DNA of 5,054 bases from NCBI GenBank assembly GCA_001799195.1, contig MGSU01000330.1, forward strand, positions 1 to 5,054, in the 5' to 3' direction. A program made the position numbers and the translations under genes. The DNA is from Deltaproteobacteria bacterium RIFOXYA12_FULL_61_11. GTDB lineage: Bacteria > Bdellovibrionota_F > JAHFAK01 > YA12-FULL-61-11. The notes under the pieces were generated by a model. The model was given only the letters and a program-made list of their open reading frames with translations, was not told the origin of the DNA and searched no databases. Position 1 is the stretch's first letter. Each line of letters begins with the position of its first letter. Below are positions 3 through 5,054 of this stretch, in pieces.

Positions 3-3000
3 ACCCCTGAGAGCGACAAGCAGGCCTCCGGTCCAGAGGTCAAAGAACTGCTGCGACCGGTCGATCCTGCTCTCCTCGAACAGTTGCGGGAAGAAGAGGG
101 GAATGCCCTGTGGGTACCGATCGGGGAAGGGGGCGAGGAGGTGCCCCTGCAGGTAGATGCCCGGGGACGGAGCAGCGTCCAGTTTTTGCTCGAACGATTG
201 ACCGAGGGGCCGACACCCTGCGTCCTCGAGCTGGCCGGTCGCACCGTGGTCCAATACCTCGATCAACCGATGGAGACTCTCGGTCTGGAAGTTGTGGGGA
301 TGGCTCAGCTCCCTCTCTTGTTACCCGGGGAGACCTGCCGTCCGTGGCAACGCATCGCGATCGATCGCATCGGTCAGGGAAACAGGCCGGCCACCCGACA
401 CCGGCTGTTCCGGTTGGGTCCCTCCCAAACCTTGCGTTTCGGGCTACCCGGACCACGAGTGCCGGGCATCCTGCGCCTGGAGGTGCTCGGCGCTTCCCAG
501 AAGGATGTTTCTCGCCTGCGGGTCGAGACCGGGGGCACCGAGCTGCAGTTCGAACACCGCGGGAGCGAGGATTTGGCCGGCGCGGTCTTCGAGGTCCCGG
601 CAGCGACCGTCCTAGTCGAACTCGAGAATCTCGGACCCGAGACCTGGGTGGCCCTGCAGCTCCGCGCGCCGATCGACCGGTCGATTCCGGAAACCTCGAT
701 TCCCGGATCGACCCCCGCTCCCGACGAGGCGGCGCGGAAGATCGCCGAACTCTCGAACCTGCTTGGCTCCTCGAGCCAACCGGACGATCAGTTCGAATGG
801 CTCCTGGAACGGGCGAGCTTATTGGCGGAGAGCGGGGTGCCTGTCCAGGCCGGCCAGGACCTTTTCCAAGCCCACAACCTGGTCTCGACGCTCGACCAAC
901 TCGGCCGGGTCTCCGCCCTGCAGAACCGCTTCGAACAGGGGGTACGGGCAACTCCGCCCGGAGAGGTGCGGCCGCCGTATCTCATGCCTTGGAGCGGAAA
1001 GGCGGTGTTCCTGCCGCGGGGTATGAGAGAAAAGCTACTCTCGCCCGGAGCAACCACCTCGGCGCTCGGAATGGCAGGAGCGGGGGAGTACGCGGCCATG
1101 TGGGAAGCGTTGCAGCGCCTGGACGATCCCGTTCAGCCCTTGGAACCGCTCGAGCTGGTGCTCCTCCACGGGGTGGCCGTGCGCTTCGGGGATTGGAGCG
1201 TTGCCGCCAGGGTCAGCCGCCTCCTGGTGGAGAGGGAACCCGGCCGTTCACGTTCCGAACAGCTCGTCGTGTGGTTGCGGGAGGTGCTCCGCGCGGAAGC
1301 CGCGGGCCAGATCCTGCCGCCCGAGCTGCGAGTCGAGGCGGCCGTGGCCGCTTGGCAGGTACAGGCCGAATTGGGCGAGGATTTTTCCACCTTGGCCGCC
1401 TCGATCACCGCCTCGTGCCGCAGAGAACAGGTCTTCGGTTTTACCGAGAGCCGCGGACGGAAGGTCGTGCCGCGGCAAGAGAGGTCGACCGGGCCGGACG
1501 AGACCAAACGGCTTGCTGCCCTGCGGGCCTTGTGGGGGACCCCGAGTCCGCCCGAACAGGTGCAGATCCTGTTGCCCGGGGAACGCAGATTGATCGAACT
1601 GAGTCTTTCCGGGGCTTTCGGTCTGGTGCTCGAGACGGTCTGGCGCACGGACGGAGCGCCGGGTGAGACGCTCGAGGGTTGCGTGCTCTCCCTGCGCGCG
1701 AAGGGGACTGTCTTGTTCGAAGCAGGAGCGCCCTCCCACACCCTCGGTGCGGTGGTGACCCGTTCTACACCGATCGGTGTGAGCGTCGGTCGCCATGCTT
1801 TGAGTCTGGGTCTCGAATGTCCCGACGCCACGCAGCGGCCGAAGGTCCGGGTGCGTCTCCTCGCTGATCGGGAGCTGCCCGGTCTGACCGTGCCCTCGGA
1901 AGGAACGCCTCCCTCGTCCGAGAGCCACGTCCTGGTCCTCTCCGGCGACGAAACCTGGTTGGAACTCCCGGCCAAGCTTCCGAGCGAGCTGGAGGTGATC
2001 GGCCCTGACCTCCTAGAACTCCGTTGGCAGGCCCCGCGTGTCGGCACTATCTTCGACGTGCGTCTCCTTGGTCCCCGAGGCGTGGTCAGGGAAGAACAGT
2101 TCGTAGCCGCTGCCCCGGGCGAGGTTGGGGAACAGACGCTGGTCCTGCCCGAGGATCAGGTCTACAGGCTTGTACTTCGACCATCGAACAAACTGGATTT
2201 ACAGGTGTTTCACCTGGTACCCGAGGTGGTGCCGCCCGGCAGGAGGATGCGTCTGGAGCGCGCTCTAGCACCGAGCTTGGACGTAGGGGGAAGCGCGGGC
2301 GGAGCTCAACCGGGACCGGCTCCCGCCCTCGAAGAGCTGGGTACGCACGGCACCTTGTGGACCGGACTGTTCGCCCGCAACGATGCCCTGGACTTGGAGC
2401 AGGATCTCGGTTCGAGCGGAACCCTCGTCTTCGGCCCCGAACTCGGGTGGCACAGTTGTGCCCCAGAACACTTCTGCTGGAAGGTCGATAGCCAACTCCG
2501 GCTGCGCAGCGCGGGTACTCCAGGCGGAGTGGTGGAGGGAGAAATCCTGGTACCCTCCTTCTTCGGTTCGGTGCTCCGACCCGGGGCCCGACTCGCCACC
2601 CAACGCTTGCTCGGGGAGTGGCGTTGGACGTCCAGGGTGGATCTCGCGGTCGAATATCCTCTCCGCCTCTCGACCTGGAGCAGACTCACCCCGTTCGTCG
2701 GTGCCCAGATCACCAACCTGGGCCTCACCTCGGCGGAGCTTGGCCAAACCGTGCCGACCAGCGAGGTCGACACGCTCGTACACAATGCGTATCGCGAAGA
2801 TCATCCCCACAATCCGTCCCTCGGCCTCAAACTGGCGGCCAGGCCCCGTTTCGAGGACCTGATCGTGGCCGCGAGCACCCTGCACGGGAACAGCGACTGG
2901 GAGTTCTGGTACCCCGACCGCTTCGAGCACGTCCTGTCCTGGTACCATGGCCATCGCGGTGGCATGGTTAGGCCCGAAGTGGGCCTGGGGTACCGTTATG

Positions 3001-3278
3001 CCGATCTCGACCGGCTCGAGGGGTCCTGGCGACCCCATCTCGGTCTGGCCGCCGGACATGCCCATTGGTTGGCCCGGGACCTCCGGTTACAGCTCCAGGC
3101 CGGGGCTCGGTGGGCGCCCCTGGAAGGCTCAGCGCTGCTCAGCGTGGCCCTGAGTCTGGTCTGGTGCAGCGGCCGAGGAGTCACCGACGACCCCGCAACC
3201 TGGTTGCCGCAGAGTATCTTTTATGAGCTCAATCGGCCGGAATTCGAAGCGCCTCCGACCACCTCCGAAGAGGAATGA
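3..3278 (+). CDS. Large multi-domain protein with helical middle and barrel-like C-terminus (5' partial)
   Basis: I do not recognise this protein. The frame is open from the left edge to the TGA at 3276-3278. The TTG at 84 is in frame but has no Shine-Dalgarno sequence, and the coding pattern continues upstream of it, so the start is at or beyond the edge; the visible bases 1-2 (TG) could complete a start codon there. Counting visible codons: 1-40 charged linker; about 130-222 beta-rich (starts HRLFRLGPSQTLRFGLPG); about 240-490 mainly helical and TPR-like; about 517-627 beta-rich (ILLPGERRLIELSLSG); about 640-745 beta-rich (VLVLSGDETWLEL); about 750-780 Gly/Ala/Pro linker; about 782-1050 alternating polar/hydrophobic strands such as LRLQLQAGARWA and ALLSVALSLVW, as in outer-membrane barrels; then an acidic tail ending TTSEEE. 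No transmembrane helix is visible, and any signal peptide would lie off-window. Inference: an envelope protein loosely like TPR-plus-barrel porins (PgaA/NfrA type). The alternative is a soluble all-beta protein. The gene is certain, the function is not. Confidence 0.9.
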   Translation, partial: TPESDKQASGPEVKELLRPVDPALLEQLREEEGNALWVPIGEGGEEVPLQVDARGRSSVQFLLERLTEGPTPCVLELAGRTVVQYLDQPMETLGLEVVGMAQLPLLLPGETCRPWQRIAIDRIGQGNRPATRHRLFRLGPSQTLRFGLPGPRVPGILRLEVLGASQKDVSRLRVETGGTELQFEHRGSEDLAGAVFEVPAATVLVELENLGPETWVALQLRAPIDRSIPETSIPGSTPAPDEAARKIAELSNLLGSSSQPDDQFEWLLERASLLAESGVPVQAGQDLFQAHNLVSTLDQLGRVSALQNRFEQGVRATPPGEVRPPYLMPWSGKAVFLPRGMREKLLSPGATTSALGMAGAGEYAAMWEALQRLDDPVQPLEPLELVLLHGVAVRFGDWSVAARVSRLLVEREPGRSRSEQLVVWLREVLRAEAAGQILPPELRVEAAVAAWQVQAELGEDFSTLAASITASCRREQVFGFTESRGRKVVPRQERSTGPDETKRLAALRALWGTPSPPEQVQILLPGERRLIELSLSGAFGLVLETVWRTDGAPGETLEGCVLSLRAKGTVLFEAGAPSHTLGAVVTRSTPIGVSVGRHALSLGLECPDATQRPKVRVRLLADRELPGLTVPSEGTPPSSESHVLVLSGDETWLELPAKLPSELEVIGPDLLELRWQAPRVGTIFDVRLLGPRGVVREEQFVAAAPGEVGEQTLVLPEDQVYRLVLRPSNKLDLQVFHLVPEVVPPGRRMRLERALAPSLDVGGSAGGAQPGPAPALEELGTHGTLWTGLFARNDALDLEQDLGSSGTLVFGPELGWHSCAPEHFCWKVDSQLRLRSAGTPGGVVEGEILVPSFFGSVLRPGARLATQRLLGEWRWTSRVDLAVEYPLRLSTWSRLTPFVGAQITNLGLTSAELGQTVPTSEVDTLVHNAYREDHPHNPSLGLKLAARPRFEDLIVAASTLHGNSDWEFWYPDRFEHVLSWYHGHRGGMVRPEVGLGYRYADLDRLEGSWRPHLGLAAGHAHWLARDLRLQLQAGARWAPLEGSALLSVALSLVWCSGRGVTDDPATWLPQSIFYELNRPEFEAPPTTSEEE
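3269..3274 (+). promoter_or_regulatory. Ribosome binding site deciding the start of the downstream gene
   Basis: AGAGGA lies inside the last codons of the upstream gene. Its spacing is zero to the ATG at 3275 and 9 bases to the in-frame ATG at 3284, so it favours the second. Both genes being this close makes translational coupling (ribosomes terminating at 3278 and restarting) likely. The motif is only a partial match to the anti-Shine-Dalgarno sequence. Confidence 0.5.
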
Positions 3279-3283
3279 AGCCC

Positions 3284-5054
3284 ATGCAGCCGCCCCGGAG
3301 AGAGGAAACCGATCGCGAACAACGCGCCTATCTCGAACGGGCGTTCCAGACCTGTCTCGGCCGCTTGGCCCTGAAGGCCGGCCGCAAGGTCCTGGGGGAG
3401 GTGATCGACGAGCTTTTCGCCTCGCGCGAGCCCGACTTCGGTCCCTTCGAGTTCCTCGAGGTCGCGGTGGCCATGGTGACCATGTTGAACCGTTCCATCA
3501 CCCAGCGCCGCATGGACTGGTTCCGCCTCCGGAAAGAAGCGGTCACCGCGCAGGATCCGGGCGAGGCTGCCAGGATACGTCGGGAGTGGTGGCTCGAACA
3601 CACCTTTGCAAGCACGAAGGAAGCGACCCTGCGGTTGGCCCGGCAGCACGGACCGGAACTCGAAGCCTGCCGGGAATTGCACCTGCGGCTGTTGCACCGG
3701 CTCGACCAGAAGTACGAGTATCTCTGTGCCTTTATCGGGGCTTCCGAGAGCCTCGGTCGGCTCAACCCGAGCGAAGTCGACCATCTTGCGGTGCAATTCT
3801 GGGGGGGGGTGACGAGACCCTCTCGCTGGACGGTGCGGGTGGCGGCGCTGAACGGCTTGACCTCCTTGTTCCGGCTCCATCCCAAGACCTCGCTGGCACT
3901 TCGCCGCGATCTGCAACTGGTCTTCAATAATCCGGACCAGTTCTACGCGGTCCGGGCCGCGGCGTTCCGCCTCTTCCTCCTCCTCGACGAGGACACCGCC
4001 CTGCGCCAGGCCGACCACGTGCTCGGTCTCCTCGAACAACGGCCCGACGAATTCCTCTTCCGACGGGCCGTGCTCGCTCTGCTCGGAGAATTGCGCGGCA
4101 AATGTCCGACCAGTATCCCCCGCGCCGCCCAAGAAGATCCGAACAGCGCCGTTCGCCAGATGGCGGTACAGGTGTTATTGCAGGGCGAGGAAACCCAAGA
4201 AGAGGCCCTGCTCGAACGGTTCGCCCGCGATCCTTCCTTCCCGGTCCGAGGGTGTTGGCTCTTCCTCCTGAACGACCCCAAAGCGGTGACCAGAGTCAAT
4301 GCCCTGCGCTTGGGAAGTCTGCACCTCCGTGCCGAACGCTCTAGCGAATTGCTGGCTTCCTCGCTGCGTTGCTTGGCCGAGAGACTCTCGGACTGGGCAG
4401 CGGAAGAGCTATCCGAGCACGTCGGCGCCGAACTGCTCGACCTGGCCTCGGTACTACCAGGGTTGCTCCTCGAGGAGGGTCGGATTTCCTTACACAGTTG
4501 GGTCTGGCTCTGCACCGACCTCTGTCGCATCCTCCTCGATCCGGGGCTGCGCTCGGCTTTCCTCCGGCTGCGCGAGCAGGTACGTACGACGTCTCCGGGG
4601 AGCAAGCTGCTGCTACCGTCCCAGTCAGAGGTGTCGAGAGAGGCCTTGCAGCCCATCCTCTCCAGTGTGGCGGCCCTCGACCTCGGTCTCTTCGGGAGAG
4701 AACAGCCCGGGAAAGGTCTGGTGCTGCGGCGAGGCGCTCGACGGAACTACCGGTTGTGGCGCTGGCTCCACGAACTGCGCCACCCGGCCCACGACAAGCG
4801 GCAGGCCCATAGCCACCTCACCGGGATCTGCCTGGAGGGCGACCATTGGTACCCCAGCCTGGTCATGTCCGAGGTGACCCGGACCAGGGTGCCGGGCGAG
4901 AGCGTCTATCTCCCGGTCTTCGCTTCCGGAGCGCCCCATCTGCCGGGACCTACCCAGGCGGACAACCTCGCGGGCCGCGACGTGGTGCGGCTCTTCCTGC
5001 CGGGATCCGACCTCGAATTGTCCTGGCAGCATCCCCGCCGCCGGCGTTGGCGAG
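3284..5054 (+). CDS. HEAT-like helical repeat protein of unknown function (3' partial)
   Basis: I do not recognise this protein. The frame is open from the overlap with the upstream gene to the last base, with 590 residues visible and no stop. The ATG at 3284 is preferred because the AGAGGA at 3269-3274 sits 9 bases upstream. The in-frame ATG at 3275, overlapping the upstream TGA, has the same motif directly against it, which is too close. Residues 1-180 are charged amphipathic helices with no signal peptide or membrane helix. Residues about 182-351 contain successive short helix pairs of HEAT type (VRVAALNGLTSLF, YAVRAAAFRLFLLLDED, FLFRRAVLALLGEL, SAVRQMAVQVLLQGEE, FPVRGCWLFLLND). Residues about 352-470 are again helical and Leu-rich. 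From about 480 the character changes to mixed alpha/beta with a His cluster (H496, H500, H503, H509, H511). HEAT repeats usually scaffold protein contacts, so a cytoplasmic partner of the upstream product is plausible but inferred. The G9 run at 3801-3809 lies inside the repeat region's leading edge without breaking the frame. Confidence 0.88.
   Translation, partial: MQPPRREETDREQRAYLERAFQTCLGRLALKAGRKVLGEVIDELFASREPDFGPFEFLEVAVAMVTMLNRSITQRRMDWFRLRKEAVTAQDPGEAARIRREWWLEHTFASTKEATLRLARQHGPELEACRELHLRLLHRLDQKYEYLCAFIGASESLGRLNPSEVDHLAVQFWGGVTRPSRWTVRVAALNGLTSLFRLHPKTSLALRRDLQLVFNNPDQFYAVRAAAFRLFLLLDEDTALRQADHVLGLLEQRPDEFLFRRAVLALLGELRGKCPTSIPRAAQEDPNSAVRQMAVQVLLQGEETQEEALLERFARDPSFPVRGCWLFLLNDPKAVTRVNALRLGSLHLRAERSSELLASSLRCLAERLSDWAAEELSEHVGAELLDLASVLPGLLLEEGRISLHSWVWLCTDLCRILLDPGLRSAFLRLREQVRTTSPGSKLLLPSQSEVSREALQPILSSVAALDLGLFGREQPGKGLVLRRGARRNYRLWRWLHELRHPAHDKRQAHSHLTGICLEGDHWYPSLVMSEVTRTRVPGESVYLPVFASGAPHLPGPTQADNLAGRDVVRLFLPGSDLELSWQHPRRRRWR
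3801..3809 (+). repeat. Homopolymeric G9 tract inside the HEAT-like gene
   Basis: Nine consecutive G residues follow a T and encode the Trp-Gly-Gly of VQFWGGVTR (about residue 173-176 of the downstream protein), with the ninth G opening the following Val codon. The frame is open on both sides with nine G, so the gene is intact as given. A gain or loss of one G would shift the frame. Such tracts can be slippage sites in some bacteria, but they are also common places for sequencing error. Confidence 0.85.

Follow-up and report, generated by a model that had tools for sequence, protein, structure and literature searches.

What do two very long genes that resemble no named family do, when they lie packed against each other? 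The window analysed here, which raises this question, makes up all of contig C330 (5,054 bases), part of a 4.64 Mb MAG, 87% complete, in which no 16S was detected and whose phylum is represented by two genomes in the collection searched. A reading of its open frames gave two long co-directional frames on the + strand, each cut by a contig end, and called P1 and P2 hereafter:

3-3278, + strand: P1, 1,091 residues, 5′ open at the left contig end
3275-5053, + strand: P2, 593 residues, 3′ open at the right contig end
3275-3278, + strand: ATGA, overlap of the P1 stop (TGA, 3276-3278) with the P2 start (first ATG, 3275), 4 bases being common to both

Third-position G+C was 0.76 and 0.79 in the two frames, matching the coding expectation. 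The first-pass annotation had described a TGA/ATG junction with no intergenic space: the adjacency is real, but the genes actually overlap by 4 bases rather than merely abutting. An alternative in-frame ATG at 3284 is better spaced from the AGAGGA at 3269-3274, and the true start of P2 may lie there, 5 bases past the P1 stop; with either ATG, P1 and P2 would be coupled. Among 50 related loci (described below), 14 have an identical 4-base overlap where the two homologues meet, so the junction is not a matter of chance. Two candidate anomalies at the right end of the window were rejected. A frameshift, suspected from the loss of a GWRPYLP motif at the end of P2, was discarded, as LAGRxVVRLF continues in frame as it does in relatives, and a 25-base match between the window end and contig C336 was a chance one, lying in another frame of an acetyltransferase gene.

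Searched singly, neither P1 nor P2 gave anything above cut-off in Pfam, NCBIfam or PDB sequences, in line with the earlier remark that neither matches a family that can be named. No homologue was found among 59 relatives, viral contigs and plasmids, and P1 and P2 joined as one query retrieved no relative from 84,980 species genomes. P2 alone gave weak HEAT signals (Pfam HEAT_2, E 0.004). AlphaFold without an alignment produced no confident structure, with a mean pLDDT of 37-39 for the two proteins. In a search of 386 genomes, the end of P2 was matched in two, G219 (candidate division CSSED10-310) and G319 (Nitratifractor); in both, the P2 homologue is directly preceded by a gene for a very long protein whose start resembles a signal peptide. 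TIGR04012 (PgsB/CapB) matched the next gene after the P2 homologue in G219, and the second half of the P2 homologue itself in G319. The domain of P2 that is conserved in these two genomes is the following:

4565-4945, + strand: conserved C-terminal domain of the HEAT half, P2 residues 431-557, with motifs WRWLHELRHP, DKRQAHSH and TRVPGE

A HEAT alignment seeded by this domain was run against the 84,980 species genomes and yielded the 50 loci. They span Proteobacteria, Desulfobacterota, Nitrospirae, Planctomycetes, Verrucomicrobia, Myxococcota, Poribacteria, Campylobacterota and others, and include cultured strains. The order in related genomes is CapC (two copies), an ∼830-residue membrane-anchored protein, an ∼300-residue hydrolase-like protein, P1, and a HEAT-PgsB fusion. 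Among the 42 loci with room upstream of HEAT-PgsB, a P1-family frame lies directly upstream in 37, is 3.5 kb off in one, and is absent in 4. The PgsB domain is fused to HEAT in 41 of the 45 loci that hold a PgsB domain; HEAT and PgsB are separate genes in L070, L071 and L074. In the reverse search, a P1 profile was run against one class, represented by 369 genomes and including G389 (Methylococcaceae); six of these genomes contain P1, and HEAT-PgsB adjoins it in all six. Tabulated in this way, homologues stand mostly side by side and not apart, and the two genes form a coupled, conserved pair, as had been proposed, whether counted from the P2 or from the P1 side. We conclude that an operon with P1 and HEAT-PgsB is conserved in many phyla of double-membraned bacteria.

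Two loci have a different arrangement. A Sphingomonas MAG (L048, 5635-13984) has no P1 but retains CapC, the ∼300-residue protein, HEAT-PgsB and a stump, 270 residues long, of the ∼830-residue protein, which makes it a natural test case. In Thiomargarita nelsonii (L050), HEAT-PgsB is apart from the genes of the ∼830- and ∼300-residue proteins, which sit on the other strand, and there is no P1 in the stretch covered.

What P2 is in the window's own genome was examined with a HEAT-PgsB fusion profile built from 19 relatives. P2 aligned with profile positions 191-575 (E 4.5e-45), and a frame on contig C266 with positions 695-1383 (E 2.4e-189); about 14 residues seem to be missing between C330 and C266. 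The frame on C266 is open at its start, at the contig end, and is also the one that TIGR04012 matches:

C266 4018-6381, - strand: PgsB-like half of the P2 fusion, by the fusion profile and TIGR04012

Judged by these profiles, P2 makes up the HEAT half of a ∼1,400-residue HEAT-PgsB fusion whose PgsB-like half is on C266. The first-pass annotation had taken P2 for a separate scaffold partner; P2 is instead the N-terminal half of the ligase fusion. Positions 231-396 of the family profile also matched HEAT-type proteins of solved structure (alphaRep, PP2A A subunit). As for the ligase half, TIGR04012 matched it in 19 of the 19 members scanned, with a best E of 2.5e-66. C266 scored E 4e-58 and 197 bits, clearly homologous but under the equivalog cut-off of 222.7 bits; two relatives, with 202-213 bits, also fall below it. 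Aligned by hhalign with an annotated Fusobacteriota PgsB (99.7% probability), the ligase half keeps the core catalytic motifs GxRGKS, TG.E, ECM, TN..DH and NNRxDR, as well as an AN motif, and C266 holds the five core motifs too. The ligase half also has a long C-terminal extension, containing a QNIKGxGL motif, that the short Fusobacteriota PgsB compared does not have. Homology of the ligase half to PgsB-type synthases is solid.

The rest of the operon was found on contig C62, where CapC (PF14102, in tandem) is matched. In coding direction, C62 encodes a CHASE2/PAS sensor, the tandem CapC (1,053 residues), an 866-residue protein, a 333-residue protein, and a 391-residue signal-peptide protein whose frame is open at the contig end, at the place expected for the start of P1. 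Put together, the 391 residues on C62 and the 1,091 on C330 make 1,482, against 1,485 for the G319 protein. The C62 piece itself did not match the P1 profile, being too divergent, and no overlapping sequence was found between the ends of C62, C330 and C266. The order C62, C330, C266 is thus one that we infer from gene order and profile fit. With this order, the genes flanking the pair appear to belong to the same operon, as anticipated: CapC, the ∼830- and ∼300-residue proteins, and the PgsB-like half.

L029 (C62) 4786-7947, - strand: tandem CapC protein, by PF14102
L101 (contig C335, window's genome) 3876-6119: 747-residue CapA-domain protein, resembling the CapA proteins beside the operon in L053 and L100

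CapC on C62 reached 115.7 bits against a Pfam gathering cut-off of 27, in two copies, and 53 of the 96 bits asked by the narrower equivalog TIGR04011 (PgsC), which places it under that cut-off. In G219 and G319, CapC lies in one cluster with a CapB-type gene; in the window's genome this cluster is spread over the three contigs, joined as above. CapA (PF09587) is found directly after the ligase in L053 and L081, and upstream of CapC in Pseudoalteromonas (L100), while in the window's genome it is outside the operon cluster, on the fourth contig, C335. Two stretches resembling the ∼300-residue hydrolase-like protein of the operon were seen in the tandem CapC of several loci (L029, L030, L031, L100, L103-L105), both within its C-terminal half. 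The ∼300-residue protein itself has conserved PHxFxD, QLHGF and HxEM motifs, and these conserved histidine, aspartate and glutamate positions suggest a metal hydrolase. The closest known counterparts are the PghP-type gamma-PGA hydrolases (PF05908), but a match to PF05908 was obtained in only 1 of 15 members, a weak one (E 0.0024) below the Pfam cut-off, and the PF05908 model run against 12 whole genomes did not find the ∼300-residue protein.

P1 proteins are 1,400 to 2,000 residues long and secreted, with beta-rich regions, TPR-like helices and a C-terminal beta-barrel-like region. The P1 of the window matched, in its barrel-like region, a P1 profile built without the window's genome (E 6e-18). 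Two regions were delimited in it:

723-1532, + strand: helical region of P1, residues ∼241-510, probably TPR-like; helices in the low-confidence single-sequence model
2553-3191, + strand: C-terminal conserved region of P1, residues 851-1063, a probable outer-membrane beta-barrel; aligns with the family profile

Family consensus sequences gave weak matches in both: TPR families for the helical region (ANAPC3, E 6e-4; TPR_16, E 0.008), and barrel families for the C-terminal one (DUF7840, E 0.0025; autotransporter, E 0.08). In the C-terminal region, the alternating-residue pattern is modestly above that of shuffled sequences. A signal peptide, seen as an N-terminal hydrophobic stretch, is present on the C62 piece and in nearly all relatives with a complete start. 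With the barrel-like region, it agrees with the earlier description of P1 as an envelope protein. One relative (L034, 4242-9941) has an inserted OmpA domain at residues 488-582 (E 1.4e-14).

PelB, PgaA, BcsC and AlgK/AlgE are TPR-plus-barrel outer-membrane exporters of polysaccharides. No sequence match of P1 to any of them was found. Like them, it has a signal peptide, TPR-like helices, a probable C-terminal barrel, and a gene beside that of a synthase. Unlike them, it also has long beta-rich regions, and its partner synthase is predicted to be an amide ligase instead of a glycosyltransferase. P1 may be the missing outer-membrane export part of the polymer system.

How does the operon compare with known polyglutamate systems? 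In the model of the polyglutamate capsule, CapB and CapC are mandatory and encoded together, CapA being accessory, and such systems have been predicted widely from CapB and CapC (PMC5542703); PgsB-PgsC pairs were reported in 250 bacterial species (PMC4497714). With PgsBCA/CapBCA of Bacillus, the operon has in common a PgsB-type Mur-ligase amide ligase and the CapC membrane protein. It differs in several respects: its ligase is fused to the HEAT half and to the C-terminal extension; its CapC occurs in two copies joined in one protein with two hydrolase-like stretches; it has P1 and the ∼830- and ∼300-residue proteins in addition; and CapA is away from the cluster in the window's genome. Cetobacterium somerae (PgsB-PgsC-PgsW, NZ_CP143320.1) is a diderm too, and its PgsB core aligns over 310 columns. 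A gene for a desuccinylase-type hydrolase adjoins pgsB there, another likeness to the operon; its PgsB (376 residues) and PgsC (142 residues) are however short, without a HEAT half, and no P1-like gene was found within 7 kb. The ∼300- and ∼830-residue proteins were considered as Fusobacteriota PGA accessory proteins, and no tie was found: they have no detectable similarity to the Cetobacterium desuccinylase-like protein and PgsW. Annotated plasmid clusters of a Fusobacteriota species, a cyanobacterium and a Streptomyces likewise have a short PgsB, with neither HEAT nor P1 in the stretches covered. No account of the HEAT-PgsB fusion or of P1 was found in the open-access literature searched. The system, which had been presented as undescribed, is not wholly so: by homology, its PgsB and CapC parts are of the known polyglutamate-synthase kind, to which the HEAT fusion and P1 are new.

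The window probably contains the meeting point of the two final genes in an operon for the synthesis and export of a gamma-polyglutamate-type polyamide by a diderm. The conserved gene order, the ligase and CapC homology, the signal peptide and the TPR- and barrel-like parts of P1, the OmpA domain of one P1 relative, and the HEAT match all count for this reading; the scores under the PgsB and PgsC equivalog cut-offs, the modest barrel signal, the lack of a confident structure, the weak hydrolase tie, the 4 loci without P1 and the contig joins without overlap count against it. In this scheme, the PgsB-like Mur-ligase domain, carried on its HEAT solenoid, would link amino acids, most likely glutamate, using ATP. 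The tandem CapC, as inner-membrane partner, would move the growing chain across, with the HEAT half probably docking the ligase to CapC or to other parts. In the periplasm, the ∼830-residue membrane-anchored and ∼300-residue hydrolase-like proteins would guide and trim the chain, which P1 would bring to or through the outer membrane, in the manner of the TPR-plus-barrel polysaccharide exporters. The wider proposal, that this is a polyamide secretion machine of diderms from many phyla, with a HEAT scaffold on the synthase and P1 as the first outer-membrane exporter of a polyglutamate-type polymer, we regard as having an even chance of being right.

Three other explanations bear on different parts of this scheme. 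An incidental adjacency, between a P2 that is a HEAT scaffold in its own right and a P1 unrelated to it, could draw on the few genomes (L070, L071, L074) where HEAT and PgsB are separate genes and on the strong divergence of the P1 and P2 sequences, but it is refuted by the synteny table (fusion in 41/45, P1 directly upstream in 37/42, and 6/6 in the reverse search), and we consider it highly improbable. The second alternative concerns the polymer. Homology points to polyglutamate or a near relative; with the equivalog cut-offs for PgsB and PgsC missed wherever scores were taken, the ligase may instead make some other polyamide. A polymer of other amino acids, or the modification of an envelope component through amide links, would also fit a C-terminal extension that the short PgsB compared lacks and a hydrolase-like protein weakly tied to polyglutamate hydrolases. 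As the ligase keeps its core catalytic motifs and CapB remains paired with CapC, we find such a product somewhat doubtful.

The same operon could also work with a P1 that is no channel: P1 might hold or present the polymer at the outer membrane, or it might be a barrel-bearing surface protein with a structural role. The great length of P1, mostly periplasmic beta-rich and helical, would suit such a role, as would the OmpA domain of one relative and the four loci where P1 is not beside the synthase. On the other hand, the layout of TPR-like helices with a probable C-terminal barrel and the steady place beside the synthase resemble those of dedicated exporters, and the cluster has no second conserved candidate for the outer membrane; we judge a non-channel P1 unlikely. 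P1, as the export candidate, shows close linkage to a CapB-type ligase and is found in culturable species, such as Pseudoalteromonas peptidolytica DSM 14001 and Aromatoleum evansii KB740, which makes the question directly testable, and the operon gives a context to a number of long gene families without a match to any named one.

Finally, some observations concern the region upstream of CapC in the window's genome. The CHASE2/PAS/PhoR-like sensor (900 residues, L029 (C62) 7947-10649, - strand) has a one-base overlap with the start of CapC, and is itself preceded by a GGDEF-type regulator (L029 (C62) 11007-12413, - strand). Sensory input or cyclic-di-GMP may control the operon in this organism.
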